This document shows positions 168 to 20,488 of a stretch of 32,543 nt of DNA, piece after piece. How positions within the stretch are numbered: position 1 is the first letter of the stretch; every line of letters starts with the position of its first letter. This stretch comes from Defluviitaleaceae bacterium (GTDB taxonomy: Bacteria; Bacillota; Clostridia; Lachnospirales; UBA5962): positions 1-32,543 of the forward strand of contig WRGD01000137.1 in NCBI GenBank assembly GCA_009787355.1, given 5' to 3'. Position numbers and translations under genes: made by a program. Under the pieces are notes generated by a model. That model was not told the origin of the DNA, ran no database searches, and saw only the letters and a list, made by a program, of their open reading frames with translations.

Positions 168-198
168 AAAAACCACCTATTATAATAGGTGGTTTTTT
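168..198 (+). terminator. Intrinsic terminator after the Rpn-like gene
   Basis: AACCACCTATTA (171-182) is followed directly by its exact reverse complement TAATAGGTGGTT (183-194). Flanking A and T runs lengthen the stem, and the hairpin ends in TTTTTT. It lies about 70 bases after the upstream stop codon in the correct orientation. Because A residues precede the stem it could also act weakly on the minus strand. Confidence 0.85.
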
Positions 199-378: not shown

Positions 379-1590
379 TCATAATAAACTTTTATTTTTA
401 TTAGTTAACAAATAGTAAAACAAAGAAAATACAGCCAAACTTATTGACAAAACTACATACGTTTGACTTATACCTCTTAAATCTATAAAGGCTCCCACCA
501 GAGGGTCTATTACAATAGAGAAACCTCCTTTGATAAATGCAATTGCACCTAATATGGTTGCTCTATTATCATTATCTATATATCTATTTCTATTTTCAGA
601 AAAAACGGGTCTTAGTATACCCATTATAACCCTTGCTATTACAAGTAAAAGTGCTACTAATACGAAATTATCTACACTTGCTAAGCCAATTACAAAAGCC
701 AAAGCCAACATCATAACAAGGTATATTTTTTCTTTAAACTTATCTTTTAATATCTGGGATTTTCTGACACAAAAAGATACAATTAAGCTACCCAAAAACA
801 TATACAATCCTATAATAGCTACAGGCATCCCTAAACTAATCATGTAAGCATTTGCAAAATACATTGTATTAGAAATGATAATCATATACACAGCATCTAA
901 AAGTGTAATTTCTCTTAACTCCTTTTTACTAAATACGCTAGTAAATGCTGTTTTAGAATACTTAAAACCTTCTTTTATAATATTTTTATTGGATTATATT
1001 TCTGTTGTTCCTTTCTCTTCTTCCAATCTAAATAGGTACAAATTGGAAAGTAATAGAGCAACTATAGACATAATAAAAGGTAAATATATATTCTGATTAT
1101 AGATAATAGTTGCTGTTATGCCTATAATAGAGCTGATAATATAGAGTTTGCTATCTTTAAATGCTTCATAATCTATATAATGCTCATCTACACCATATTT
1201 TTTAAACTTACTGTACATAAGTGCCGCTCCGTGGTTAGACGATGCTCCAATTACCAATATCAATTCTGCAAAGATAAAGAAAATAAACACAGGATATATA
1301 ATATATAATGCAATACCAATAGCACTAATAATATTACCTAATATAGTTGTTTTTTTTCTTCCCCATGTATCTGCCAATATGCCTGCTGGGACGTTTGTTA
1401 TCATTCCCCCAAAACTCTCAACACTACTTAATATCATAATCATTGTAAAAGTAAGGTTATATTCTAAAAAAAACAGAACAATTATACTGTAAATAAATAC
1501 TGATTGTTTAATAATAGCGTAAATATAATATTTATTAATTTCAGATATAAGAGTTTGTGGTATATTGGGATTTTTATAACTTAATTGCAC
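379..1590 (-). pseudogene. MFS transporter interrupted by one in-frame stop codon
   Basis: Two open segments, 1590-994 (198 aa) and 993-379, lie in the same frame and are separated only by a TAA at 996-994. Read through, they give one protein of about 403 codons, the normal size for a 12-helix major facilitator. The N-terminal half has about six membrane helices and the MFS motif A loop GILADTWGRKK between helices 2 and 3. The stop falls in the central loop between the two halves, after EEEKGTTEI. The second half carries six more helices, and its first ATG is at 891. Translation probably begins at GTG 1590 behind a GGGGGAG ribosome site. No shift or insertion is visible, so this is a nonsense mutation, a split gene or read-through. 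No well-placed ribosome site for a separate second half was seen. The substrate cannot be told. Confidence 0.8.
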
Positions 1591-3982: not shown

Positions 3983-4008
3983 ATGAAAATATGCTAATGA
4001 AAATATGC
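3983..4008 (+). repeat. Tandem duplication carrying ATG codons upstream of pncB
   Basis: ATGAAAATATGC occurs at 3983-3994 and 3997-4008, two bases apart. The first copy opens a four-residue ORF, M-K-I-C then TAA. The second copy is in frame with pncB and could extend the enzyme N-terminally by 21 residues relative to ATG 4060. No ribosome site precedes either copy. This looks like slippage duplication. Confidence 0.6.
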
Positions 4009-4010
4009 AA

Positions 4011-4048
4011 AAGAAAGGACTGTTTGCAAAAGAAAATTTTACAAACAG
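4011..4048 (+). promoter_or_regulatory. Shine-Dalgarno followed by a hairpin before the pncB start
   Basis: The best ribosome-site candidate is AAAGGA at 4014-4019, 40 bases from ATG 4060. Between them CTGTTTG (4020-4026) pairs with CAAACAG (4042-4048), extended by AAAA/TTTT inside. Folding this stem would leave only about 11 unpaired bases between the ribosome site and the ATG. This supports 4060 as the start through a structure-bridged site. It is a structural inference from sequence only. Confidence 0.4.
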
Positions 4049-4059
4049 CTATTAAAATT

Positions 4060-5502
4060 ATGACAGATAAAATATCTATGCTAATGGATTTTTATGAACT
4101 TACAATGGCACAAAGTTTTTTTAAACAAAACAAACATTTAGAAATAGGAATTTTTGATTTTTTCTATAGAGCAAATCCTTTTGGAAATGGATATGCTATT
4201 TTTGCTGGTCTTGAACAATTTATATCGTATATTCAAAATCTTAAATTTTCAGAAGAAGATATATCATATTTAAATAAACTTAAAAAATTCGACAAAGATT
4301 TTTTAGAATATCTGAAAAATTTCAAATTTGATGGGGATATATATTCTGTAAAAGAGGGTAGTGTTATATTTCCAAACGAACCACTTATAAAAATTACAGC
4401 TCCTATATTACAAGCTCATATAATAGAAGGAGCTTTATTAAATATAATAAATCACCAGTCTTTAATAGCAACAAAAGCTAGTCGTATTGTACAATCTGCA
4501 GGAGATAATAATGTTATGGAGTTTGGTCTTAGGCGTGCACATAGCCCTAGTGCTGCTTTGTACGGCTCTCGTGCATCTATTATAGGTGGAATTAAATTTA
4601 CAAGCAATGTAATGGCTGGACAAATATTCGATATTCCTATAGCTGGTACACATTCGCATAGTTGGGTTATGTCTTTCGATACAGAACTTGAAGCATTTGA
4701 GGCATATGCAATAAATGACCCTTGTATACTTTTAGTAGATACTTATAATACTCTAAAATCTGGAGTTCCTAATGCAATAAAAATTTTCGACAAGCTGAAA
4801 AAACAAGGCTCCACTAATAATTATGGAATACGATTAGACAGTGGAGATTTAGCCTATATATCAAAAAAGGCAAGAGAAATGTTAGATAAAGCAGGACATG
4901 AAAATGCTATAATAGCCGCTTCCAACGACTTAGATGAAAATTTAATATCCGATTTGAAACAGCAAGGAGCTAAAATATCCCTGTGGGGAATTGGTACAAA
5001 TCTTATTACATCTTCTCCAAAGCCTTCTTTTGGTGGTGTTTATAAATTGTCTGGAATTTATAAACAAAACAAACTAATACCAAAAATTAAAATATCTGAA
5101 ACACCAGAAAAAATAAATAACCCATCAAACAAAAAATTAATAAGAATATACGACAAACAAACAAATAAAATGATAGCTGATTTAATAACGCTTGAAAATG
5201 AAAATATAAATACAAATGAAGATTTAACGTTGTTCCATCCAATACAAACATGGAAAAAAATGAAAATCAAAAAATCTAATTACTATGTAAAAGATATGCT
5301 AATAAAAATTTTCGAAAAAGGAAATTTGACATACAAAAATCCAAGTGTAATGGAAATACACGAATATGCAAATAAAGAAAAAGAAACACTATGGGAAGAA
5401 TACAAAAGAATAACAAACCCAAATATAATGCCTGTAGATTTAAGCCAAAAGCTATATGATTTAAAGCAGAAGATGATAAATGATATTTATGATACTTTCT
5501 AA
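4060..5502 (+). CDS. pncB: Nicotinate phosphoribosyltransferase
   Basis: This 480-residue enzyme of the Preiss-Handler NAD salvage route joins nicotinate to PRPP, giving nicotinate mononucleotide with ATP hydrolysis. Visible family blocks are the N-terminal MLMDFYELTMAQSFF, the FGLRRAHSPSAALYGSRASI segment, and AGTHSHSWVMSF, which holds the histidine phosphorylated in this family. LVDTYNTLKSGVPNAI and GIRLDSGDLAYISKKAR follow in the phosphate-binding barrel. The frame is open back to ATG 3991, but 4060 is preferred: homologues start a few residues before the 'LMDFYELTM' block, and the upstream Lys/Cys-rich 23 residues look like leader. No other NAD gene is adjacent. A 22-bp stem terminator ends the unit. 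Confidence 0.93.
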   Translation: MTDKISMLMDFYELTMAQSFFKQNKHLEIGIFDFFYRANPFGNGYAIFAGLEQFISYIQNLKFSEEDISYLNKLKKFDKDFLEYLKNFKFDGDIYSVKEGSVIFPNEPLIKITAPILQAHIIEGALLNIINHQSLIATKASRIVQSAGDNNVMEFGLRRAHSPSAALYGSRASIIGGIKFTSNVMAGQIFDIPIAGTHSHSWVMSFDTELEAFEAYAINDPCILLVDTYNTLKSGVPNAIKIFDKLKKQGSTNNYGIRLDSGDLAYISKKAREMLDKAGHENAIIAASNDLDENLISDLKQQGAKISLWGIGTNLITSSPKPSFGGVYKLSGIYKQNKLIPKIKISETPEKINNPSNKKLIRIYDKQTNKMIADLITLENENINTNEDLTLFHPIQTWKKMKIKKSNYYVKDMLIKIFEKGNLTYKNPSVMEIHEYANKEKETLWEEYKRITNPNIMPVDLSQKLYDLKQKMINDIYDTF

Positions 5503-5625: not shown

Positions 5626-6018
5626 ATGTCTAAAGCAACCACAATTAGAATAGATGAAGAATTGAGAGCAAGTATAGAACCAAAATTCGAAAAATTAGGT
5701 CTTAACCTTACAACATATGTAAATATGGCATTAAAAGCTTTTGATAGAGAAAATGGTATTCCATTTGACGTTTTTTTAATAAGTGAAGAAAATTCAGATT
5801 ACCATGCTAAATTACTGCATTCAATAGAACAAGCAAAAAGAGGAGAAATAATTACGACGATAAATAAAAAAACACCCCCACAAGCAGCGCTTGCAGGGGT
5901 TATTTTTTTGTTTAAAAATTTCTTAAACTTCTGGTGTTTCCATATTACCGTCTTCAAAATCTGGAGTTATAATTATTTCTATTTCCAGCTCTTCGTAAAT
6001 TTCATTTTCAGAATCTAA
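5626..6018 (+). CDS. RelB/DinJ-type antitoxin, orphan and 3'-truncated
   Basis: Residues 1 to about 79 match a RelB/DinJ antitoxin. The ribbon-helix-helix start is TTIRIDEELRASIEPKFEKLG, then LNLTTYVNMALKAFDRENGIPFDV, ending at SIEQAKRGEIITTI. Such proteins neutralise RelE/YafQ mRNA interferases and repress their own operon. The normal C-terminal toxin-binding tail and the toxin gene are absent. The frame instead runs through the terminator of the convergent giant gene and 96 bases into that gene's antisense strand, giving a hydrophobic tail unlike any antitoxin. A transcript ending at the hairpin near 5900 would have no stop codon. Promoter and ribosome site are excellent, so the 5' half is intact and only the 3' end was replaced. 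Confidence 0.75.
   Translation: MSKATTIRIDEELRASIEPKFEKLGLNLTTYVNMALKAFDRENGIPFDVFLISEENSDYHAKLLHSIEQAKRGEIITTINKKTPPQAALAGVIFLFKNFLNFWCFHITVFKIWSYNYFYFQLFVNFIFRI
5866..5905 (-). terminator. Terminator of the giant surface-protein gene (minus strand)
   Basis: On the minus strand ACCCCTGCAAGC (5900-5889) pairs with GCTTGTGGGGGT (5885-5874) over 12 positions, two of them G-U, around a 3-base loop. TTTTTTT follows. It starts about 22 bases after the stop at 5923. The plus strand also has a T run after the hairpin (5902-5909), so it probably terminates convergent transcription too, although two positions become A-C mismatches there. Confidence 0.8.
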
Positions 6019-9000
6019 TTCGTTTAAATCATCTTCCAAACCGTTTAATAAATCTAGAAGTTCTGGTGTAATAGTAACATGTATAAGTTCTTGCAAAGAT
6101 GTTCCACGTAGCTGTACTGTAACAATTACTGTTATAGGCTCATCTACATCTGTCATTGCTGTTACCATTCCTGCAAAAACAGAAAGTGAAGAATCGCTAC
6201 TAAACCAATCAAATTCATGATTATCGATTAAAACCTCGCCAAATTGGTCGAGTACAGAAACGCTAATAAAGGAGCTCGAACCTGCTTCTAAAGATATAAA
6301 GTTAGTGCTTACAGAAAGTTTTGTTGCTATTCTTTCTATAGCTTGCTCTATTTCTTGTTCTAGTTCTTCTAAGTCTTCTATTTCGATAATTTCTTCGATA
6401 ACTTCATCGTCTTCGTCATCTAGCTCTTCGTCTTCCAAAGTATCTTCATTTCCAGAACCTAAATCTGGTAAAACTGGAGATACAACTTCTGGCTCTGGGC
6501 TAGTAGGCAACCCTGGTTCTGGTAATTCTGGAGCTACAACTTCTAAATCTGGATTAGTTGGTAACTCTGGCAATATAGGAGCAGGTGCTGGGATTGTCTC
6601 TTCTGGTGCTATTGGTAGTATTGGTGCACTTATAATATTTATAGCAGCTGTTATTGTTATAGGTACAGTAGCTGTTACTGTAGTAGCATTAGCCCCAGTC
6701 CCAACTGTTACAGTCGCTATTAAATCAAATGTTTGACCAACTAAATTATCAGCTGCAAACATTAAACCAGAAAATACAATAAGCCCTTCATTATTACTAG
6801 AACTAAATATGATATTGTGGTTTCCAGGTAACGGTATACCAAACTGGTCTAATACTGTTCCTGAAACAAGTCTCATTTCTCCAAAAGGAAGATTAGTTGA
6901 ACCACCTGTATCTACAGTTATTGTAGTTGCACGCCTTGGTGGGTCTGTAATAAGAATATCTCTCTCTACAAAGTTTGCAGGGTCATTACTTACTGTTGCT
7001 CTAACTCTAATAGTTGTATTGATTAATGATATATCTGTACTATTAAAGTTTAAAAGTCCACTAGATGGGTCAATTGTTATACCTGTTGGTACTGTAGATG
7101 GTGAAGATATACTCCATACAACTGTTGGTGCTCCTGCACCTGTTACTAGTGTATTAAATCTATCTCTTATCTCTGCATTTAAAGTAACACTATGACCCAA
7201 ATGAAGCGAAGTAAGGTTAGCTGGAGATGTTATAGCAATAGTAAGCCTGTTCATAACAGCTATTGTAACTGGTGTACTAGCTGTTCTTGCTGCTATTTGA
7301 GCTGCGTCTAACCCTTGTGGTGCATTGTCTAATGTAGCAACTACATTAAATCTATTTCCTTCTAAATCTTCGTCATCTATTACTGTTACAGTACCTGTTG
7401 AACTATTAATACCAACTCCTGTTATATTTCCATTAGGTGTAATATTGTTATTTATAGTCCATGTTATAGCTGCGTTTGCTACTGCATCGCCAAATCTATC
7501 ACGAGCTTCTGCTCTAAATGTATTTGGTGATTCATTATTTGGAGAGTTTATATCTACTTCATGGCGTACTGTTGTTTCACCAGTTACAGGTAAAATTGCT
7601 ATAGTTATAGCTTCACGTACTGCTGGTATCACAGTTATTGTTATTGTATCTGTTACTGTTGTAGCAGTCACCCCTGTACCAAGTGTAATATATGCTTCCA
7701 CTGTTACAGTTCCTGCTGTTGCATTGTTCGGTACTGTTAATGTAGCTGTTGGTCCCGTTCCAGATATAGTTGCACCTGTATTATTAGTACCTGTAATTCT
7801 CCATCTTATAACACTGTTTGCACTTGCTGGTATACGTAAATCTCCAAATTGGTCAAGTGCACCTGCTGTTAAAGTAACACTCGATAATACTTCCGTATTA
7901 AGCGTTCTTGGAGATAATGGCAATGTAATTGCAAAGTCTGTTGTTACTGGTACTCTACCAGTTACATTTGTTACAGCACTTCTTATTGCTACATGCTCTG
8001 TTACAAGTGTTGGAGCCGGTATTGTTATTACAACGCTGTTGCTAGCCGTTATATCTGTTTGCCCTGTAGCTGTATTTGCTGGTATTGTTGCTGTTGCCAC
8101 TACATTGAATGTACCTAATGGAGTAGTTGCTGGAACAGTTACAAAACCTGGGTTTGTTACTGGAGCCACTGTAGCTGTGTTAGTTACTGTAACTCCTTGA
8201 CCAGAAGTACCATTTGTTATACTCCATGTTACTGGGTGGCTATCACCAAAACGGTCTACTGCTGTTACTGTAAACTGGTGGCTTCTAGTTTGTTCTATTC
8301 TGTTTTGTGTTGGTAAAGAACCTATTGTTACAGTTAATTCGTTTGGTCTTACCGTTGGTGCTACTACTGGTACTAAAATAATTGTTTGTACATATTCATT
8401 TTGGTTTGGATATGGACGCATTATTCTTTGTGGGTTCGGACCAGTTGTATATGCTATACCACGTACTGCTATTGTAGAACCTACACCTACATGTCTGTTT
8501 GTAGTAAGTATTCCCGTTATAGGGTCTATAGATACTATACCTACTCTACCATCGCTTGTATCGGAAGCTGGTCTACTACTTTGTCGTATATCGTGTTGCT
8601 GATAAGTTTCAAATATATCCCAACGCACTTGCGTATTTGGTACTACTGCATGTGGCAACGAAGCATCTAGCCTATTGTGAACAACCGCTGTAAAGCGAGT
8701 TATACTATCTAGTGGCTGTATTGTTGGTATTACTTGTGGTGTTAATGTTAACCCTGCTGGACCAGTCAAATGTATTCTAGTTGCTGGTAATGGAGTCGGG
8801 TCTATTGTTATCGTAACAAAAGCATTTGTTACATTGGCTTGTGGTACTTCTGCATTTACTCTAAATGTACTACTTGGTGGTACATGCTCGTTTACTGTTA
8901 CTGTTACAACATTTGTTTGGTTATTTATTGTAGCTGTTCTTGATGCTTGAGGATTATTTGCACCTGTTATATTACTTACAGTAACAGTTGGCTGTGTACT

Positions 9001-12000
9001 TCCTGTATATGGTCTACCTAACCTATCTGTCATTGTAACATTAAACAATGCTGTACTATCTATTTCCATTATATTGCTTGGCGGTGTTGCAGCCGAAGCT
9101 ATAGCTATAGAATGTAATACATCCGATGGTGTTGCATTTACTACTAAAGTTACTTCTGTAAATAATCCATAAGGTAATGCTTGTGTTACTGTACCTGCAA
9201 CTGTTGCACGAACAACTATTGTTCCACCAGTTACTGCAAGTGTTGCTCTATTTTGTGCATTGTTTGGTATATTTACAGTACCATTACTATTTACAGTTAT
9301 ACCATAAGTACCTGTTGGAGTAATGTTTTGTATTGTCCAATTTATCGTTGGATTTGTTGCTGGTTGATTTTGCAATGGTAAAGGTCTATTAAACCTATCT
9401 CTTACGTCTGTTGTTAGATTCCTATCTATTGCAACTTCCATTGGATTTGGCTGACCTGCATTTGCATGAGGTGCTACAAATAAATGTCCTGTAACAGTTA
9501 TACTGTATGGGCTTGGGTCTGCTGGGTTTATTGTAACAACAGATGAACCACTTATTGCATTTGGTCCAGTTGCTGGACTTGCTGTTATACCTGGGCTAGC
9601 AGCTATACTTGCCGTTGCTGTTACATTAAATGGATTACCATTGTTAAATGCATTGTTTGCTGGTTGATTTGGTATTACTAAGTTTGTAGTAAGACCTGTA
9701 GCTGTTCTTGTAGTTATATTTGCATTTGTTATAGGGTTTGGAACTGGTGTTACAAATCCTATTCCTGTTGGTGCTGTTGTACTCCAATCTATAATAAGAC
9801 CTGGTACATTGTTCATACTAGAACCGAATTGGTCGTAAACAATTGCTGTAAACTCTCTGCTACTCATTATATCCATAGGTACACTTGTAGCTGGATATGT
9901 TGGCATTGGGCTTACCCTAACTGCGGATATAGTTCTGTCTGCCTCTCTTACTGTTATTGTTAAAAGTACACTATCTATTCTTGCTGGTATATAAGGTGCA
10001 TGAGATGCTTGAGTTCCACCTGCTGGTACAAATGCACGTACCACTATTGTACTATTTGCTCCTACATGACGGTTTACTGTTAGTACACCTGTGTCAGAGT
10101 CTATACTTACTGCTGCTGCATTACCTGTATCCCATGTTGGTCTTGTATGACCTGCTTGAACTGGTGTTCTATCTGTAAAGTTTAGATTTGGTGTTCCAAC
10201 TATTTCCCAACGTATTGGCAAGTTTAGATTTAATCCAGGGTTTGCGTTCATGTTACGGTTTATCTGGTCAAAAATTGTTGCGTTTAACGTTGTTTGTGTC
10301 ATTGGGTCTACAGTAAGTGCTGTTATAGCTGGGTTTGGAGGAGTAGCCGGTTGTGTTACTGTTGTTCCTGCTCCTGTTATTGCTACAGTTGTTGCTATTG
10401 GGTTTGGTATTGTTGGTGTAATATTTACTTGGTTAGTAATATTACCAGTTGTTATATTCCCTGGAGCCGAATTTGCTGGAGCCGTAGCTGGTGTACTTGC
10501 TACAAGTACAATTCTTGGCTGTGGCGGACCTGCAAGAGTCTGGTCGTTTGGAAGTGTAATAACTGTGCTATTACCTGTAGTAGTGCTTAAAGTTACACCA
10601 TTTGGTGTAGTACCTTGTATAGACCATGTTATAGGTGATGTACCTGTGTATTCTCTACCTAGTCTATCTACTATTGTTGCCACAAATGTTTCATTTGTGT
10701 ATATATTCATAGAATGGTCTAATGCTGTAGTTGGTAATGTTACTGGGAAGCTCAAAGCTGGAGTTTGACCCTGTCTTCTTACTACTATACTGTGTGGAAA
10801 ACTTAAAGCATCTATTACAGTTAAGCCTGTACTGTCTGATACAATACCACCTGTAGGAGCTGTTTGTACCCCTTGTGCATTTAATACTGGTCTTCCTGTT
10901 TGCCCAGTTACTGGTACTACCGATACAGATACTGTATAACCACCTATTCTATTTGCCTCTGCAGGTATTACTATTGTATTAGTGCTTGCCCCTGCTGCTG
11001 TAATGGCAGTTGTTGTTGCTGTGTTAAACGCTAAATTTACTCCAGTAGGTCTTGTTACATTCCATGTAAATGTGTGCGGAGCTGTTATTGGATGTCCAAA
11101 TCTATCTGTAACCGTTGCAGTATATTCTATACTTGTTCCTATTTCTCTTGTTGCATTAACAGGAGTTAGAACTACTGTATGAGCATTACGATTTGGAGGT
11201 ATTATTGTAACTGTTGCTGTTGCTGTGTGTGTTGTATTCGCACCAGTTGCATCTGTACCTGATACTGTCGCTGTTACATTAAAGTTGCCTGTAAGAGTTA
11301 GGTTGTTTGGTATTGTTAATACATTTGTGTTTACTGGTGCATTTGTATGCGTACCAACTGTTGCAGTACCTGCTGTACCCGTAGTGCTTGCAAGCGTACC
11401 ATATGTTGCACTAGATACTGTCCATGCCCAATCACTACCTGGAACTGGTGCCACTGGTAAACCAAACTGGTCGAATGCTGTTACAGTAAAGCTGTGTGTT
11501 GTATAAACTTCTGTAGATAAAGTACTTGGAGTTATTGTAACAGTTCTTGGACTTCTGTCTGGTTCTATTACCGTTACTTGTACTCTATCATATATAGCAG
11601 GGTTGCTAGTTACTGCTACTCTAACCCAGAAAGTTGTTCCAACTGGTACATAACGATTTACTGTTACAACACCTGTGTTAGATATTGTTATAGCTCTTTG
11701 TCCACCCGGTACTATTGGTGCTGTACTGCTCCAGTTTATACCTTCGATAGTCCATGTAAGTGCTGGTCTTGGGTTTAATGTTGTGTTCATTGGTCTACCC
11801 AAAATTTCAAACACTATTGCATCAAAATCACCTGTACCTGCTACCGGTATTTGAGATATTACTGGTTGATTTTGAACTGGGTTTGAACCCGGCACTGTAG
11901 CTGGGTTTATTATTTCCACTGTATGTGGTACCCAAGGTAAATCTTCTATAGTAATAGCTGATGTAACAGTTGCATTGTATGTTTCAGTTCTTACATAAGT

Positions 12001-15000
12001 TGGATTAGTTGTACCATTTGTTGCAGTAGCACTTGTATTAGCTGCTAAACTATTGTTTGCTCTTGCTCTAAGTGTAAAAGTACCACCTATAAGTGCTGGA
12101 TTACCCGGTATTGTTACCGTACCACCTGAATACGTTATACCGTGATTTGCTATACTTTGTAGCCCATTTGCTAAACTTTCAATAGTCCAAGTAATAGGTC
12201 CTGTATAATTTCTACCTAGCCTATCTGTTGCTACAAGTGTAAATACTTGGTTTGCAGATATTCTAATATTTGCAGTAGTTGGAGTAAGTGTAAAATTATG
12301 CGGAGTTCTTGGTATATCTATTATTCTTACTGCTACTTCTGCTGGAGTTATTGCATTGTTACCTTGTACTGCCGCTCTAACTGTAAATGTCCCACCTATT
12401 AAGTTTGCATTTGCTGGTATAGTTACGGTTCCTGCATTTATTGTTACACCTGCTGCACCACCTGCTGGTATAGACCATGTTACGCCTGCATTTGGTATCA
12501 CACGACCTAGCCTATCTAATACTCTAGCAGTAAATACATTTGATGTTCCATGTGGTATTACTTCTATTTCTGTTACACTATTTACTAGTTCTATGCTATG
12601 AGGCGTTGGAGGTGCATCTATTACCGTAACAGTTGCTGTAGCTGATACATCGTAAGCTACCGTTCCACTTGGAGGGTCAATAGGGTTTGGTACCGTTCCG
12701 CTAACGCTTGCACGAACACCAAAAACTGTACCTACTGGAACATATCTATCTACCGTAACAACACCATTAGCAACAGTAACACCTGCTATTGTTATAGGGT
12801 TTCCTGAAGCATCTACTATAGTCCATGTTATATCTGCCGCTGGACGTGTAACAGCTTGCCCAAAACGGTCTGCCATAGCTATTGTAAAAGTATGATTGCT
12901 TTCTATTTCCATGTTTCGAGTTGTTGGAGATATTGTCATACTTACAGGTGGTCTTGCTGGAGCTACTATTTGCACTATTACATAATCGTAATGTATAGTT
13001 GGCGAAATAAGTGTGTTGTTTTGTATTTCTGCTGGTGTTGGTTCTCTCCAGTTAAACATTGAAGGTATATCTCTTACCCAAGCTGCACTGGATATAGGAG
13101 TTAAAAGTCTACCATTATGAACAACAAAACTACCAAGCGAAACAGCTGAATTTGGATTGGCATTACTTACATCTACTACATTCGACAAGTTAATGCTCGG
13201 TATTCCATCTACTTCTACTCTTACTCTAAAAGTAGAACCTGCAGCTGCATTTGCCAAAATAGTTAAAACTTCATTTGAAGTTAATACTCTGTTAGGACTA
13301 GAACTAACAGATACACCACCTACCGTAACAGGGTTTCCCGTTGCTTCATCTCTTATAGACCATCTATATACTGCAGCTACTTCAGTTCCACCTACTGGCA
13401 TATCGTAAGCTTGTGCTTCTATATTAGCAGTTCTTAACGGCTCAATTAAATACGTAGTAGTACCTGGATTTATACCTACATGAGTGTTTGCCAAGAAATG
13501 CGTTCTATCTATTTCTACACGTTGTGGCAATCTCTCCCAGTGTATGTCTATCCAGTTTCCTGCATTTGCACGTGTAAAACGAAGTTCTGGATTAATGTCT
13601 ACCAATCCAGTCAATGCTCCCGCACCACCACGATTATTTCCACTTAGTAAAAAGCTACGTACACCGTTACCATGGTTATGTCCACCATTTACTATAGAAT
13701 CTGTACCTTGGTATCTACCGTAGGACGCTCCAGGAACTGGAGGGTTTACTGTTACTTGTTGTCCCTGTGGAGTTCTTGTTGTAAACCTTGAAACTGTTGT
13801 AAAACCAGTATTTCCTAGGGTATGGTTTTCTACGTGGATGTTTGGAAAATTACCATTAGCAACCGTAACAGGTATTGTCATTATGTCGTGATTATTAAAT
13901 GGGTGTAAAATTTGGTTGGCTGTTCCCGACTCTGTAAGAATCTGTGGCCATATACCACCATTTGCAGGTACTGGAGGTTGACCTGGTACACGGATATAAC
14001 TACCCAAATGGTTACCTATTAAAGCTCCTCTATCACCAACATCCCAAAACAATTGGTCGTTTACAAGTGTACCTGCTCTAGTTGCAGTTGCAGTATTATC
14101 TCTTAATATAACATCTGAACCAATAAAAACACGGTCTCTTAATACATTAAGAAAGTTGGTTCTTATTGTATTCTCAGTACCACCTGTTTGGTTTGTATTT
14201 GGTACTGTCATATTATTATCTGGGATAATACCTATACCACCACCAAAACCATTTGTTCCTCTAGCTTCGTTGTTAGATATTATACCACCATTTATTCTTA
14301 CAGTAGCATTACTATTTAGTGCTATACCACCACCACGACCTGCAACATTGTTTGTAATACTACCACCGTTCATTATAAATGTTGCAACAGTATTTGCAGC
14401 TGTTCCAGAACCTAGTACGGCAATAGCACCACCAACACGTGGTCCATTATTCCAAGCATTATTGCCAGCTGGAATTACTATTGGTTGTGTAGAATTTAGA
14501 GCATTCATTATAGCATTTGCTCCAGTATGATTATTCCCGTCATGGTTCATTACTACGTTGCCTGTTATACTACCATCGTTTAGTATAAAAGTACCACCAG
14601 CATTTATTCTAACACCACCACCAGCAATACCAGAACCAGTACCATGAGAAAAAGCATCTATAGCTGCATTTTCTCGTATAGTACCACCATTCATTGTTAC
14701 AGTAGAACCACTACCAACAAAGATACCACCAGTGTTAGATCTACCAAAAGAACCATCGCCTGAAGGATGCGAAGCCACATTGTGTTCTATTACTACATTT
14801 CCAGAAATATTTAGCGTTCCGCCTTCTAATGATATACCACCACCACGAGCAGAAATATTTCTAGCGATGCGAGCATTCCCACTTAGGTTTGCAGTAGCAT
14901 TGTGTATAAATAAACCACCTCCACCTGTTCCGTTTCCTGCATCTGTTCCTATAGCACCATTCCATCTAGGTACATGACCCGGTCTTGCATTTCGCTCTAT

Positions 15001-16935
15001 AGAACCATCAGTCATGTTAAATATTGCATTATTTATAACAGCTACACCACCTCCACCTTGATGCTCTGTATTATCTCCACCTGCATTATTTACATTGTTG
15101 TAAATGGTACCACCGTGCATATGAAAATTAGTGTTAGCACCAGCTACAAGTACTCCCATACCTGCACCTGCATGACCACCACCTACACCGTCGAAGTTAC
15201 CGCCGTTTCGACCTGCTCTATGATTTCGTATTATTCCATCGTGCATTGTAAAAGTAGCACCATTGTCTACTCGTACACCACCTCCACCGACATTACTACC
15301 TGTGTTTACATGATTACTTTCTATTATTCCACTAGTCATGGTAAATGTGGAGCCTGCTCCTCTTACAAGCACACCACCACCACCATTGTTGTTTGCATTG
15401 TTGGTTACTCTATTTCCTGCTATTGTTCCACCTGACATAGAAAATGTAGCACCGTTTATAACGGCTACACCACCACCAGAATGTGCAGAAGCATTTGTGT
15501 CTGCAGTTGCAAGGCTTGTAAATCCACTCCATGTTGGCGTTGGAGAACCTATACGACCACCGCTCATATTGAAAAAGGAGTTTTGACCTGCTACATGTAC
15601 ACCACCTGCACGTGCAGTTGCAGCTGCTATTGTATTAACGTTATTTTGTATAGTACCACCGTGCATATTAAACGTTCCGTTTTGTACATCTACTCCTGTT
15701 TGGCTACCACTTATTGTTCCTGTTACAAGATTTACTGTACTACCATTTAATATATTTACACCACGGTTACCATTATTATTAATAGTACCACCGTGCATAT
15801 TAAACGTTCCGTTTTGTACATCTACTCCTGTTTCAGTTCCATTTGATATGGTACCAGCAAGCATATTAAACGTTCCGTTTTGTACATCTACTCCACGTAT
15901 AGCAGTGTTTATAGTACCGCCCTGCATTTGGAAAGTACCACCGTTTTGAATTTGTACACCACGTTGAGTTCTAGTTGCATTTGTATTAGCAGCACCTATA
16001 GTAACATTTGGACCCATTACAAGTGTTGCATTTGAACCTGTTACTGTAAATACAGCTGCATTTGCTGCATTACTTAGCAGTTGATTATTTCCTGTACCTC
16101 TACCACTTACATATACTAGTTCTGTTACTTGCATACCATTCCCTGTACCAAGAGCGTTCGAGTTACTATTTACAACAATATGAATATCGCTAAAAATTCT
16201 GTTTAAATTCCAAGCTAAAGCTCCAGAAACAAGTGCTGTATTAAGGTGAATAGTAATAGGTATATTACTTAATTGATTTCTTAATTCATTTCTAACAACA
16301 TCTTGTTGAGTTCCAGGACCCGGAAAAACGCCACCATTAGCTGAAGTTGTTACATTGTTAAATGGATAGCTATTGTAAGGAGAATTTGCTGGAAAATTAC
16401 TACTTCCAATAACAAAATCGAAACCATTTCCAGTAACTTGCCCATTAAACAAGAAACGTTGAAGTCTGGCAGTAGTAGTAGCTCCATTTACGTTTGCATC
16501 TTGTATAACATAGTGAAACCTACCACCATACCAACCACTAACTGTACGAGTTGGTCCTATATCTGGAATTGTTATAGGAGTGCTAGTCGGTGCTATAGGC
16601 ACAGACGTTGTTACTACAGAAGTTGAAGTTGGCATTATAGGAGTTGACATTGGGGCAATTCCAATACCTTGCTGTGTATAACCACCTTCTTCATTGGTTA
16701 TACTACTACTATCATCATTCGATGAAATATCGTAGTCTTCAAAGTCGTATACAGAATTAGAATCTTCGTCTATACCTTGTATATCGCTTTGTATATAAAT
16801 ATTATTGTTGTTTTGCTCTGCTGCAAAAACAGTAATATCTATACTGCTTGCTACCATAATAATAACAAGTAGCATGCTTATAAATCTTGAAAATTTAGAT
16901 GTGTGACTCTTTTTAGAGTTTTTATAGTGCGTCAT
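5923..16935 (-). CDS. Giant secreted beta-helix / Ig-like repeat surface protein (3,670 aa)
   Basis: A signal peptide (1-39, hydrophobic core FISMLLVIIMVASSIDITVF, cleavage after FAA) is followed by an acidic Ser/Asn stretch and a Pro/Thr/Ser linker (about 90-130). Residues about 300-945 form a right-handed beta-helix of Gly/Asn-rich rungs (GG.I..N, NGTFNM), locally with a clean 22-residue period. From about 1,330 to 3,430 come 17 Ig-like (BIG2-like) repeats, each with a DRFG/DRLG/DQFG-type signature, W(T/S)I, and often VPVGTTF.VRA. A Pro-rich linker (about 3,435-3,492), a strongly acidic helix (to about 3,530), an 18th repeat and an acidic tail end the protein. No LPXTG, S-layer-homology, choline-binding or transmembrane anchor is visible. 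AAGGGAG lies 8 bases before ATG. Adhesin or surface-fibre function is likely by architecture; the ligand is unknown. Codon use looks more G+C-rich than neighbouring genes. Confidence 0.92.
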   Translation of the reverse strand: MTHYKNSKKSHTSKFSRFISMLLVIIMVASSIDITVFAAEQNNNNIYIQSDIQGIDEDSNSVYDFEDYDISSNDDSSSITNEEGGYTQQGIGIAPMSTPIMPTSTSVVTTSVPIAPTSTPITIPDIGPTRTVSGWYGGRFHYVIQDANVNGATTTARLQRFLFNGQVTGNGFDFVIGSSNFPANSPYNSYPFNNVTTSANGGVFPGPGTQQDVVRNELRNQLSNIPITIHLNTALVSGALAWNLNRIFSDIHIVVNSNSNALGTGNGMQVTELVYVSGRGTGNNQLLSNAANAAVFTVTGSNATLVMGPNVTIGAANTNATRTQRGVQIQNGGTFQMQGGTINTAIRGVDVQNGTFNMLAGTISNGTETGVDVQNGTFNMHGGTINNNGNRGVNILNGSTVNLVTGTISGSQTGVDVQNGTFNMHGGTIQNNVNTIAAATARAGGVHVAGQNSFFNMSGGRIGSPTPTWSGFTSLATADTNASAHSGGGVAVINGATFSMSGGTIAGNRVTNNANNNGGGGVLVRGAGSTFTMTSGIIESNHVNTGSNVGGGGVRVDNGATFTMHDGIIRNHRAGRNGGNFDGVGGGHAGAGMGVLVAGANTNFHMHGGTIYNNVNNAGGDNTEHQGGGGVAVINNAIFNMTDGSIERNARPGHVPRWNGAIGTDAGNGTGGGGLFIHNATANLSGNARIARNISARGGGISLEGGTLNISGNVVIEHNVASHPSGDGSFGRSNTGGIFVGSGSTVTMNGGTIRENAAIDAFSHGTGSGIAGGGVRINAGGTFILNDGSITGNVVMNHDGNNHTGANAIMNALNSTQPIVIPAGNNAWNNGPRVGGAIAVLGSGTAANTVATFIMNGGSITNNVAGRGGGIALNSNATVRINGGIISNNEARGTNGFGGGIGIIPDNNMTVPNTNQTGGTENTIRTNFLNVLRDRVFIGSDVILRDNTATATRAGTLVNDQLFWDVGDRGALIGNHLGSYIRVPGQPPVPANGGIWPQILTESGTANQILHPFNNHDIMTIPVTVANGNFPNIHVENHTLGNTGFTTVSRFTTRTPQGQQVTVNPPVPGASYGRYQGTDSIVNGGHNHGNGVRSFLLSGNNRGGAGALTGLVDINPELRFTRANAGNWIDIHWERLPQRVEIDRTHFLANTHVGINPGTTTYLIEPLRTANIEAQAYDMPVGGTEVAAVYRWSIRDEATGNPVTVGGVSVSSSPNRVLTSNEVLTILANAAAGSTFRVRVEVDGIPSINLSNVVDVSNANPNSAVSLGSFVVHNGRLLTPISSAAWVRDIPSMFNWREPTPAEIQNNTLISPTIHYDYVIVQIVAPARPPVSMTISPTTRNMEIESNHTFTIAMADRFGQAVTRPAADITWTIVDASGNPITIAGVTVANGVVTVDRYVPVGTVFGVRASVSGTVPNPIDPPSGTVAYDVSATATVTVIDAPPTPHSIELVNSVTEIEVIPHGTSNVFTARVLDRLGRVIPNAGVTWSIPAGGAAGVTINAGTVTIPANANLIGGTFTVRAAVQGNNAITPAEVAVRIIDIPRTPHNFTLTPTTANIRISANQVFTLVATDRLGRNYTGPITWTIESLANGLQSIANHGITYSGGTVTIPGNPALIGGTFTLRARANNSLAANTSATATNGTTNPTYVRTETYNATVTSAITIEDLPWVPHTVEIINPATVPGSNPVQNQPVISQIPVAGTGDFDAIVFEILGRPMNTTLNPRPALTWTIEGINWSSTAPIVPGGQRAITISNTGVVTVNRYVPVGTTFWVRVAVTSNPAIYDRVQVTVIEPDRSPRTVTITPSTLSTEVYTTHSFTVTAFDQFGLPVAPVPGSDWAWTVSSATYGTLASTTGTAGTATVGTHTNAPVNTNVLTIPNNLTLTGNFNVTATVSGTDATGANTTHTATATVTIIPPNRNAHTVVLTPVNATREIGTSIEYTATVTDRFGHPITAPHTFTWNVTRPTGVNLAFNTATTTAITAAGASTNTIVIPAEANRIGGYTVSVSVVPVTGQTGRPVLNAQGVQTAPTGGIVSDSTGLTVIDALSFPHSIVVRRQGQTPALSFPVTLPTTALDHSMNIYTNETFVATIVDRLGREYTGTSPITWSIQGTTPNGVTLSTTTGNSTVITLPNDQTLAGPPQPRIVLVASTPATAPANSAPGNITTGNITNQVNITPTIPNPIATTVAITGAGTTVTQPATPPNPAITALTVDPMTQTTLNATIFDQINRNMNANPGLNLNLPIRWEIVGTPNLNFTDRTPVQAGHTRPTWDTGNAAAVSIDSDTGVLTVNRHVGANSTIVVRAFVPAGGTQASHAPYIPARIDSVLLTITVREADRTISAVRVSPMPTYPATSVPMDIMSSREFTAIVYDQFGSSMNNVPGLIIDWSTTAPTGIGFVTPVPNPITNANITTRTATGLTTNLVIPNQPANNAFNNGNPFNVTATASIAASPGITASPATGPNAISGSSVVTINPADPSPYSITVTGHLFVAPHANAGQPNPMEVAIDRNLTTDVRDRFNRPLPLQNQPATNPTINWTIQNITPTGTYGITVNSNGTVNIPNNAQNRATLAVTGGTIVVRATVAGTVTQALPYGLFTEVTLVVNATPSDVLHSIAIASAATPPSNIMEIDSTALFNVTMTDRLGRPYTGSTQPTVTVSNITGANNPQASRTATINNQTNVVTVTVNEHVPPSSTFRVNAEVPQANVTNAFVTITIDPTPLPATRIHLTGPAGLTLTPQVIPTIQPLDSITRFTAVVHNRLDASLPHAVVPNTQVRWDIFETYQQHDIRQSSRPASDTSDGRVGIVSIDPITGILTTNRHVGVGSTIAVRGIAYTTGPNPQRIMRPYPNQNEYVQTIILVPVVAPTVRPNELTVTIGSLPTQNRIEQTRSHQFTVTAVDRFGDSHPVTWSITNGTSGQGVTVTNTATVAPVTNPGFVTVPATTPLGTFNVVATATIPANTATGQTDITASNSVVITIPAPTLVTEHVAIRSAVTNVTGRVPVTTDFAITLPLSPRTLNTEVLSSVTLTAGALDQFGDLRIPASANSVIRWRITGTNNTGATISGTGPTATLTVPNNATAGTVTVEAYITLGTGVTATTVTDTITITVIPAVREAITIAILPVTGETTVRHEVDINSPNNESPNTFRAEARDRFGDAVANAAITWTINNNITPNGNITGVGINSSTGTVTVIDDEDLEGNRFNVVATLDNAPQGLDAAQIAARTASTPVTIAVMNRLTIAITSPANLTSLHLGHSVTLNAEIRDRFNTLVTGAGAPTVVWSISSPSTVPTGITIDPSSGLLNFNSTDISLINTTIRVRATVSNDPANFVERDILITDPPRRATTITVDTGGSTNLPFGEMRLVSGTVLDQFGIPLPGNHNIIFSSSNNEGLIVFSGLMFAADNLVGQTFDLIATVTVGTGANATTVTATVPITITAAINIISAPILPIAPEETIPAPAPILPELPTNPDLEVVAPELPEPGLPTSPEPEVVSPVLPDLGSGNEDTLEDEELDDEDDEVIEEIIEIEDLEELEQEIEQAIERIATKLSVSTNFISLEAGSSSFISVSVLDQFGEVLIDNHEFDWFSSDSSLSVFAGMVTAMTDVDEPITVIVTVQLRGTSLQELIHVTITPELLDLLNGLEDDLNELDSENEIYEELEIEIIITPDFEDGNMETPEV
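6160..12960 (-). repeat. Tandem Ig-like repeat array inside the giant gene (about 18 units)
   Basis: The marker motif D[RQ][FL]G or close variants recurs near 12860, 12500, 12220, 11795, 11465, 11095, 10660, 10260, 9830, 9395, 9010, 8690, 8255, 7845, 7495, 7155, 6840 and 6240. Units are therefore about 95-145 residues apart. Three copies are degenerate at the motif: EILGR, DQINR and NRLDA. The units are divergent at DNA level, which argues for an old array rather than recent copying. Confidence 0.85.
14090..16050 (-). repeat. Beta-helix coil region of the giant protein
   Basis: About 30 short Gly/Asn/Thr-rich coils follow the pattern GGG(V/I).(V/I)..GATF.M.GG.I..N. Regular coils of 22 residues are seen near 15660-15900; elsewhere loops of varying size interrupt them. 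This pattern is typical of right-handed parallel beta-helices in pectate-lyase-like and polymorphic adhesin proteins. No pectate lyase catalytic motif was recognised. Confidence 0.8.
15663..15894 (-). repeat. Three identical 34-bp blocks in 66-bp register
   Basis: The same 34 bases occur at 15663-15696, 15795-15828 and 15861-15894, at offsets of 132 and 66 bases. They encode the rung core GVDVQNGTFNM. The rung between the first two is divergent. Identity at DNA level within a diverged coil array points to recent duplication or gene conversion of single 22-codon rungs. Confidence 0.85.
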
Positions 16936-17067: not shown

Positions 17068-17364
17068 TTACTTTGTTTTTTTCTTTTTTACATTCTGTGT
17101 AAAATCTGACCAATCTTCTACTTTGAAAGCTCTTATATCACGAACACTATCTACAAACCAATCTATTTCTTTTAGCCTATCTATAGCTTCGAATACAGAA
17201 ACCATAGTATTATTATTGCTACGGTTTATATAAAGGCTACCCTGTGTCCATTCAAAGCCAAACTCTAGCATTTCACGTTTTATTTCATCGTAGGCACCAT
17301 TATATGGCTCTCCATAAGATTTTTTTAGGTCATCTATTTTTAAGTCGAATGCTATTGCGTACAT
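17068..17364 (-). CDS. vapD: VapD family ribonuclease (virulence-associated protein D)
   Basis: This 98-residue protein has a close VapD pattern: N-terminal [18 protein letters not shown], then [26 protein letters not shown], and C-terminal [21 protein letters not shown]. VapD proteins share the ferredoxin-like fold of Cas2 and act as small RNases, in Haemophilus paired with the antitoxin VapX. The Asp in IAFDL is the expected metal-site residue. The length is the usual family size, and the tail is Lys-rich. AAAAGAGG lies about 5 bases before ATG. No VapX-like partner is visible; instead a BrnT remnant ends 16 bases upstream on the same strand, suggesting a former mixed toxin cluster. Confidence 0.87.
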
Positions 17365-17539: not shown

Positions 17540-20488
17540 CTACATATCCCAAAGCAAATCTACAACATTATCACTACTAGTATTGCCTTGCAAAAACATA
17601 AGCATAGCCGATTGGCCTAAAACCTCTAGCCTAACATTCTGCATAGCTTTTTCTGCCATATCTGAATGTCTAAGCCTAGATTCCGAAGAAGTTTGTTCCA
17701 TACTAGCACGTATAACCGAGGCTGCGGTATGCATAAGCCTATTTTCTTGTGCTCCTAGGTTTGCACGAGCTCTAGATACCAACGATTCGGCGTGGTCTAA
17801 CCTATTTAAAAAAGAAGACATTAAAATACCATCTCCATCACCCTCGTACAATACCGAACCTGTGGAAGGGTCTATTACTTCACCATATACAATAGCTCTG
17901 TTTAAATCTCTTACAAAATTATTTAAACCAAGAGAACCAAGCGTCATAGACTCAAGTGTCATATTGTGGCGTTGTCCACTATTGGCACCAGATTGTATTT
18001 GTAGTATAGTAGGACTTCGCATACCCTCCAGTGTATCCATATGGATAAAGTGGTTTTGTAATGCGTAATTAATAAAATCTCTTACAGCAAAGTATCCACC
18101 AGTAGTATTATTCGGTGGTCCAGTGTCGAAAAGGCTAGGTATGTTACCCAAAAATATATATTCTCCACTAGAACCGATAAACGGACCTGCATTTTGCCTA
18201 ATCCAATTTGTTACAGCTTCTGCGTTTATTCTTCCAGCATCTACTGGACCGTTTTGGGCACCTGTCATAGATGTAGGAGTATTTACCCAGTTTGATGCAC
18301 CACGAACATCGTGTATGGTAGGTCTTGGAACTCTTTCAAATACAAAAACGGCATTACCAGTTTGACCTGGATTGACTACTTGGGTGTTATTCGCAGTAAG
18401 TAATGAGTTGTTAAGCCAAGTTGTAACTTGTTGTACTGTTTGAAAACTTCCTTGTGGTGGCCACTGTATATTATTTAGATTCATTGTCCAATTTAAATTG
18501 TTTCCTGCACCATTTGCCCATCTATCGTTTAGCCAGTTTGTAACGTATTGTACATTACGGTTGTATATGTGTTCCTGTGCATTTCGTAGGTTTAGGTTTG
18601 GTGTACCAAGAGTACCCATTAAATCGGCATGGTTTGGATTAAAGTTAAATATGTTTTCAAAACTTGGAGCATTTGGCACATTTCCAGGTATCCAATTTTG
18701 CAAACCACCGCCTATAGGGTTTAGTAAAATACCTTGTGGACCACCTCCCGCAGGTGCAATTGGAGGTAATGGGGAATTCCAATTAAAAACCTGATTACTC
18801 AAAATGGAATTTATAGTACCTGGATTAGCGACACTCCACCCAGTTGGTAAATTGGCAGGGTCTACCCCAGAAAGCCAATTCATAAGCCCTTGTCTATTTA
18901 GATTAATAACTCTATTCGGATTATTCATCAAGTCTAAACCACTAGAAACAAATGTGCCATTATTCACCATATTTTGAAAGTTATTACCCGGGTTGTTAAG
19001 ACCTAACGAGTTTAATATAGCACCTCTGTCTGCCGGTGTAGCCCCCCCAAAAAGGTCTAAAAAAGCCTGGGAATTAAGAAAATTATCAAAATTGGTAGCA
19101 TTGAATTGCTGTGAATTAGCTAAACTTCCTATAACATCTCTAAAATTGCTACTTAAAGTAATACCAGAAGGCAAACTATTTGCAGCATTTTGAATCATAT
19201 TGGCAAGTTTTAATCTATTATAGTTATTAAACATGGTATTCGCATTCGTACCACCAGGGCCTGTCGGAATCGTCCAATCCATGGTATAATTGTTAAGCGA
19301 ACCCGTGTTTAAAGAATTAAGAACATCTTGGAAACCATTGTTAAGGTTAAACTCAAACAAACTTCTAAACGTAGCATTATTGTTGTTTAGAAAATTATTT
19401 ACAAGTGTAGGATTGTGCAAATCTTGATTATTTATTATATCTTGCCAATTTGACACCAATCCCCAACCTGTAGGCAATGTTTGAGCTCCAAGCCAACCTA
19501 TAACAGCAGCTCTATTTTGATTATTTGCTAAATCTATCTCCTCTTGCACTACATTCACAAGGTTTGGTATACTAACACTTACATCAACAAGAGCGTTACC
19601 TGGTCTAAAATTATCCCGTGGGCCAGATGCCCAAGTTCCATTATTTGGTGGTAAATTATTTATAAAAAAGTTTTCAAATGTAGAACCATTTATTATAGAA
19701 TTTACATGGTTGTAATTTTGAAGCATGGAATCCGGGATTGCATCTAAAATTGATTGCAAATCAGCAGAATTGTGCAATATCCAATACCCACCACCTGCTG
19801 CATCCATTGCACCCCTTTGGGAATTTAGCCAATTAAGTATTGCATCCCTATTACGCTGTGCTGCCATAGCTGGTGTAACATTGTAATTTTCTATACCCGT
19901 GATATTGTTTTGCACCCAAGCCATATCTATTGGTCTACCACCCGGCACCAAATGGTTTATAAGATTGGTAAGGTCTGTACCATCTGGTCCAGTGTAGCTA
20001 ATTTGCCCAGGTACTCCTGGTACAAAAGTACCCGGTACAAGTCCTGCCGCAATGGCATTCATATCCAGCTTACCCTCTAGTAAGTTTATTCCATTAAAAG
20101 TTGTTCTTTGTACTATTTCTGTAATAGCGCCTAATGCTTGTTCTATTTCTGTTGCAATAGTTTGCCTATCTGTAACTGTGTACACATCGTTTGCAATTTG
20201 TACATTTAATTCTCTTACCCGAGATATTACAGCAGATATTTCTTGCATAGCGCCTTCGGCTGTCTGAATTAAGCTAATGCCATCGTTTATGTTTCTAGTA
20301 GCTTGGTCCAAACCTCTTATTTGCTGCCTCATCCTTTCACTTACAGAAAGCCCAGCTGCGTCGTCGGCTGCACTATTTATTCGCATACCTGTACTCAGCT
20401 GGTTTCTGATATTATGTTGAGTTCTTTCTATACCTAGTATATTTCTATGAGTATTCATAGACATAAGATTAGTACGTATAGACTGCAT
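17540..20488 (-). CDS. fliC: Giant flagellin with repetitive central domain (982 aa)
   Basis: This is the filament subunit of the flagellum, secreted by the flagellar type III apparatus and so without a signal peptide. Residues 1-140 are a canonical D0/D1 N-terminus: IRTNLMSMNTHRNILG, GMRINSAADDAAGLSVSERM, then NINDGISLIQTAEGAMQEI. The last about 100 residues are the matching C-terminus (LGAQENRLMHTAASVIRASM through LGQSAMLMFLQGN). Between them lie about 740 residues, against under 200 in a typical clostridial flagellin, built from degenerate repeats of about 60-75 residues. No HExxH protease motif of flagellinolysins was found. AAAGGAGG lies 5 bases before ATG. I found no sigma-D type promoter. 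The gene is immediately followed in frame by a BrnT remnant. Confidence 0.93.
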   Translation of the reverse strand: MQSIRTNLMSMNTHRNILGIERTQHNIRNQLSTGMRINSAADDAAGLSVSERMRQQIRGLDQATRNINDGISLIQTAEGAMQEISAVISRVRELNVQIANDVYTVTDRQTIATEIEQALGAITEIVQRTTFNGINLLEGKLDMNAIAAGLVPGTFVPGVPGQISYTGPDGTDLTNLINHLVPGGRPIDMAWVQNNITGIENYNVTPAMAAQRNRDAILNWLNSQRGAMDAAGGGYWILHNSADLQSILDAIPDSMLQNYNHVNSIINGSTFENFFINNLPPNNGTWASGPRDNFRPGNALVDVSVSIPNLVNVVQEEIDLANNQNRAAVIGWLGAQTLPTGWGLVSNWQDIINNQDLHNPTLVNNFLNNNNATFRSLFEFNLNNGFQDVLNSLNTGSLNNYTMDWTIPTGPGGTNANTMFNNYNRLKLANMIQNAANSLPSGITLSSNFRDVIGSLANSQQFNATNFDNFLNSQAFLDLFGGATPADRGAILNSLGLNNPGNNFQNMVNNGTFVSSGLDLMNNPNRVINLNRQGLMNWLSGVDPANLPTGWSVANPGTINSILSNQVFNWNSPLPPIAPAGGGPQGILLNPIGGGLQNWIPGNVPNAPSFENIFNFNPNHADLMGTLGTPNLNLRNAQEHIYNRNVQYVTNWLNDRWANGAGNNLNWTMNLNNIQWPPQGSFQTVQQVTTWLNNSLLTANNTQVVNPGQTGNAVFVFERVPRPTIHDVRGASNWVNTPTSMTGAQNGPVDAGRINAEAVTNWIRQNAGPFIGSSGEYIFLGNIPSLFDTGPPNNTTGGYFAVRDFINYALQNHFIHMDTLEGMRSPTILQIQSGANSGQRHNMTLESMTLGSLGLNNFVRDLNRAIVYGEVIDPSTGSVLYEGDGDGILMSSFLNRLDHAESLVSRARANLGAQENRLMHTAASVIRASMEQTSSESRLRHSDMAEKAMQNVRLEVLGQSAMLMFLQGNTSSDNVVDLLWDM
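18395..19855 (-). repeat. Degenerate Asn/Leu-rich repeat array in the flagellin centre
   Basis: The unit begins NR.A(I/V)..WL (seen as NRDAILNWLN, NRAAVIGWLG, NRQGLMNWLS, NVQYVTNWLN). It continues through LP(T/S)G(W/I) and a 'DI/DVI' helix to a (V/D)NFLN..F..LF or SFENIFNFN element. At least five copies can be traced. They are protein-level repeats, diverged at the DNA level. Confidence 0.65.

Follow-up and report, generated by a model that had tools for sequence, protein, structure and literature searches.

An efflux-like MFS transporter gene with one in-frame TAA in its central loop: a probable recent nonsense pseudogene in a Defluviitaleaceae bacterium

The window analysed here is a stretch of 32,543 nucleotides (positions 1 to 32,543 of contig WRGD01000137.1, assembly GCA_009787355.1, from a Defluviitaleaceae bacterium). 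On its minus strand lies an MFS transporter gene whose frame runs from a GTG start at 1590 to a final TAA at 381-379, and translation gives 198 residues, a TAA at 996-994, 204 residues and the closing TAA (Table 1). A "half" in this context is the part of the gene on one side of the internal stop, i.e., the N half before it and the C half after it. Searched alone against PF07690, the N half scores 40.2 bits (profile 15-104) and the C half 30.8 bits (profile 195-340), the latter below the 33.4 cut-off, and the two cover consecutive stretches of the MFS_1 profile. In a search of the same genome that read through stops, the gene scored 68.9 bits over positions 15-340 of the 347-position profile (cut-off 33.4) and was flagged '1 TAA'; the genome's other seven MFS_1 matches contain no stop. 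The N half holds the motif GILADTWGRKK, which we take to be MFS motif A. It also resembles the tetracycline efflux pumps of NCBIfam, and because this resemblance is sub-threshold and limited to the N half, we only infer the label "efflux-type".

Table 1. Features of the interrupted gene and its surroundings (window coordinates).
Feature	Position	Strand	Remarks
MFS transporter gene (PF07690, efflux-like)	379..1590	-	404 codons read through, one in-frame TAA
N half, helices 1-6	997..1590	-	motif GILADTWGRKK; MFS_1 40.2 bits and model
In-frame TAA, codon 199	994..996	-	in disordered linker between bundles; translation and model
C half, helices 7-12	382..993	-	204 codons, no interruption; MFS_1 30.8 bits and model
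AAAGGAG, candidate Shine-Dalgarno-like site	919..925	-	inside C half
ATT, residue 228, candidate non-AUG start	907..909	-	9 nt past AAAGGAG; inferred
Hairpin	168..197		13 bp, 4-nt loop, A/T flanks; RNA fold -17.9 kcal/mol (75 nt)

The preliminary description of this DNA called the start and terminator of the gene intact, which holds with qualifications. Both elements are present, with a ribosome-site match before the GTG of GGAG only, 11 nt upstream, and a hairpin that sits ~180 nt beyond the end of the gene. The hairpin could equally serve a convergent plus-strand gene ending near 97 and is missing from the terminator scan listing; it probably ends transcription from both sides, as the two genes converge on it.

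Further along the minus strand, positions 5923-16935 hold a single 3670-codon ORF with roughly 40% GC in a 29% GC genome. Its match to Big_1 is weak (19.7 bits, below the cut-off), and it probably encodes a giant surface protein. A 982-residue flagellin with normal N and C domains and a large middle part lies at 17540-20488 (minus strand). Between these two, at 17068-17364 (minus strand), is a 98-residue ORF with a Cas2 match (PF09827, 26.7 bits, cut-off 23.8).

A structural model of the read-through protein (pLDDT 85.2, pTM 0.82; built on an input alignment of four sequences only) shows a linker, residues 188-203, connecting two helical bundles. The claim that the stop separates six helices from six helices is borne out in this predicted structure: residue 199 falls inside the linker, and residues 196-201 have pLDDT values below 50. 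Foldseek comparison with the PDB returned NorA, LacY and XylE at probability 1.00 among the 50 matches listed, and the nearest solved folds among those matches include NorA, VMAT2, LacY and XylE; searching solved structures by sequence gave one weak match. Of the single changes that could create a stop in this gene, 9 of 176 (5%) fall in codons 188-203, and 9% fall in codons 188-222. The central position of the stop is therefore by itself weak evidence.

To place the interruption, we compared the gene with homologues in other genomes. There were 20 matching places in 18 other genomes of the order (392 genomes) and 20 in 16 other genomes of the class (391 genomes). Of these 40 places, 39 were examined and each is one stop-to-stop frame; a match of 105 codons at a contig end (L061) was left out. 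An N-truncated homologue (L103; 316 codons, query 114-401) was kept out of the alignment, so 38 homologues remain for comparison, and three short matches (L114-L116) were not used. Four further homologues from Bacteroidota, Bacillus and Spirochaetia (L111, L112, L113 and L117) are also single open frames. The alignment agrees with the earlier claim of a single same-frame gene parted by the TAA only: against the homologues, the gene shows neither a shift nor an insertion. The comparison with relatives that had been proposed as a check was thus carried out, and the in-frame stop is absent from all homologues examined (38 comparable and 4 more). As all of these are single open frames, the split is, on the sequences compared, private to this genome.

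The relatives available for this comparison are distant. The closest whole-length homologue (L047, from genome G294) has the best whole-length identity, ~29%, and none of the relatives found exceeds about 30% over the whole length. There was no match in the six members of the family searched and no same-genus genome among the relatives searched. Searching a collection of genome contigs with the N half gave six loci, the best at 36% identity over 122 residues, and the same search with the C half gave no relative. A plasmid search gave one record (37% over 30% of the query). A nicotinate phosphoribosyltransferase-like ORF (3-1268) is found close to L047, as one is close to the window gene (3991-5502), and L047 overlaps a radical-SAM/SPASM-like ORF; both of these L047 neighbours were named by eye.

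Several candidates for a second interrupted MFS gene were rejected. Two homologues had been flagged with stops, L047 ('1 TAA') and L089 ('1 TAG'), because the match overran the gene boundary. The former is an intact 389-codon ORF and the latter a 408-codon frame, each with its stop at or outside the gene end. An apparent case in genome G040 was likewise an overrun, its ORF (1914-3101 of L119) being intact at 395 codons. One true internal stop was seen among at least roughly 150 matches listed: in G049, a genome of the same order, an MFS gene that is EmrB-like by eye (L118:860-2281, minus strand) has an in-frame TAG and is otherwise open. It shares the single-stop interruption with our gene, but its stop follows residue 144 whereas ours is in the central loop.

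The relative conservation of the two halves bears on the age of the lesion. Identity in the C half is 0.778 times that in the N half, compared with a ratio of 0.747 (sd 0.050) for the 38 homologues, of which 27 are lower, so by this measure decay has been no faster in the C half than in the N half. Being relatively as conserved as in intact homologues, it points either to a recent lesion or to a C half that is still used. The protein is divergent as a whole, with its terminal branch ranking 41 of 43 for the N half and 39 of 43 for the C half. It has lost 7 of 22 near-invariant residues over both halves, tied for fourth highest of 43. However, equally divergent homologues (L057, L113 and L051, with equally low mean identity) lose as many, so these losses are no proof of relaxed constraint.

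The gene also differs from most of its genome in composition. Among 283 genes, the N and C halves stand at percentiles 2.8 and 8.1 of the codon index, and GC3, atypical in both halves too, is at the 96th percentile. Its homologues are scattered over families. Atypical codon use together with scattered homologues fits a horizontally gained gene that is being lost. Foreign origin is suggested and no more, because the genome's own intact MFS gene L010 has similar codon use (0.635) and the window's flagellin is lower still (CAI 0.581, GC3 0.268; the most atypical of six other window genes measured). In a survey of prokaryotic pseudogenes, a transferred origin was 2.3 times likelier for pseudogenes than for genes, and a sugar-transporter MFS family was among the top pseudogene families (PMC522871). 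Our gene resembles the cases enriched there in being a disabled, codon-atypical member of a large transporter family, but that survey required more than one disablement (PMC522871), whereas here there is one lesion, at a domain boundary.

We therefore favour, with a probability of about 0.7, a recently disabled nonsense pseudogene of a mildly atypical, patchily distributed, efflux-type MFS transporter that was probably gained horizontally. On this view, one nonsense change, at codon 199, would have put the gene out of action recently. Ribosomes would end at the TAA and release a 198-residue six-helix N half, presumably unstable or non-functional, and the C half would go untranslated; it would still look intact because there has been too little time for further lesions. 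Three observations count against this reading: no second lesion was seen across the 404 codons, the stop lies at the only point that would let a split MFS transporter still work (5-9% by chance), and an initiation-like site follows it. Of the two readings in the preliminary description, the recent nonsense mutation is favoured by the unique stop, the lack of extra C-half decay and the absence of any split relative. The other, a functional split or read-through transporter, fared poorly because there is no suppressor tRNA among the tRNAs identified and the first standard start of the C half lacks a good ribosome-binding site.

The first alternative to this pseudogene is that the stop is an assembly or base-call error and that codon 199 of the living gene is a sense codon. 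The genome is a draft (152 contigs, 96.5% complete), the lesion is a single base with all else intact, and no relative shares the stop, all of which would fit an error. A search for same-frame pairs of long segments parted by one stop, run over 432,543 bases of this assembly, gave 36. Five are antisense to longer ORFs, and five ambiguous pairs proved in a family test to be two different genes each. Another 25 have a start codon no more than 20 codons from the stop and were taken as neighbouring genes, with no family test. Once antisense pairs are set aside, every second segment except that of the MFS pair has a standard start within its first 34 codons. The MFS gene was thus the sole stop-split gene recognised, so nonsense errors are not widespread in this assembly, and we consider an error here unlikely.

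The second alternative is a functional split, in which translation of the N half stops at the TAA, the C half is made from its own start and the two halves assemble. The first ATG, GTG or TTG of the C half is a GTG at 891, 34 codons past the TAA, with a Shine-Dalgarno match of 3 nt. No canonical start in the C half has a good ribosome-binding site, and a good one precedes only a non-AUG codon, the ATT at 909-907, which follows AAAGGAG (the site as a whole spans 925-907). Sites of this grade number 18 in 102,971 codons, a density (0.009 per 50 codons) at which about 1% of stretches of that length would contain one. However, that count admitted four non-standard codons (ATT, ATA, ATC and CTG) alongside the standard starts, as well as various spacings, and the site came to light post hoc, once several features had been inspected; it is less surprising than the figure implies. 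The site also simply encodes Lys-Lys-Glu. No homologue has AAAGGAG-ATT at the same place, and of 39 rows, one of them the window's, 2 have such a site at all; the other (L096) has a 6-nt Shine-Dalgarno match with ATA at another place.

Starts of this kind are documented in other systems. AUU with an extended Shine-Dalgarno sequence initiates in S. aureus at ~10% of the AUG level (PMC13009471). In Y. pestis, the frameshifted rcsD makes a C-terminal domain from AUU, and there too a broken frame is followed by a candidate ribosome-binding site and an AUU for the C-terminal part (RcsD-Hpt); that case, however, involves a frameshift, a signalling protein and experimental proof, whereas the MFS gene is known from its sequence (PMC10191623). 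LacY and XylE, which share this fold, have been divided into halves at the corresponding loop, and separately expressed LacY halves are protease-sensitive unless co-expressed, but those halves were engineered, each cloned and expressed on its own (PMC7272624). The lack of decay in the C half would also suit a split. Against it, reinitiation is unlikely at 84 nt, the distance from the TAA to the ATT, given that coupling is almost lost at ~20 nt (PMC10666635). An AUU start would also lie five residues inside the model helix 223-252 (near the start of helix 7), and no homologue examined is split. Naturally split membrane proteins have been called rare (PMC3464245). Our literature searches on split MFS transporters found no natural bacterial case among the entries listed, from which we do not claim that none exists. 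On balance we regard a functional split as quite improbable, and its fuller form, a natural MFS fission at its first step with a central-loop stop, the C-terminal six helices made from AUU and a two-chain transporter, as slimmer still.

Read-through of the stop could yield some full-length transporter, as the frame is open on both sides of the TAA and low-level read-through has been proposed for rcsD (PMC10191623). However, UAA is the main stop codon in this genome, with TAA ending 152 of 210 long ORFs. None of the 34 tRNA matches in the draft, all read for their anticodon (one, C122, unconfirmed as a tRNA), has a UAA-reading anticodon; this set is incomplete, since no tRNA-Ala or tRNA-Ile was seen. 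These points make read-through very improbable. The only stop-reading tRNA seen is a tRNA-Sec (anticodon tca, reading UGA) at L110:241-333 of the same genome (C128; ARAGORN), so the organism may make selenoproteins. Lastly, it is highly doubtful that the 198-residue N half is kept alone as a functional six-helix protein (a homodimer): it ends neatly past helix 6 in the model and scores as MFS_1 by itself, but no half-length homologue was found among those examined, and L103 and L061, though partial, do not correspond to an N half that stops in the linker.

A nonsense pseudogene of this kind would be routine, i.e., a patchily distributed, codon-atypical transporter in the course of being lost. 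If both halves are made, however, the locus would be a natural and very young case of fission in a transporter, its second chain being made from an unusual start codon.
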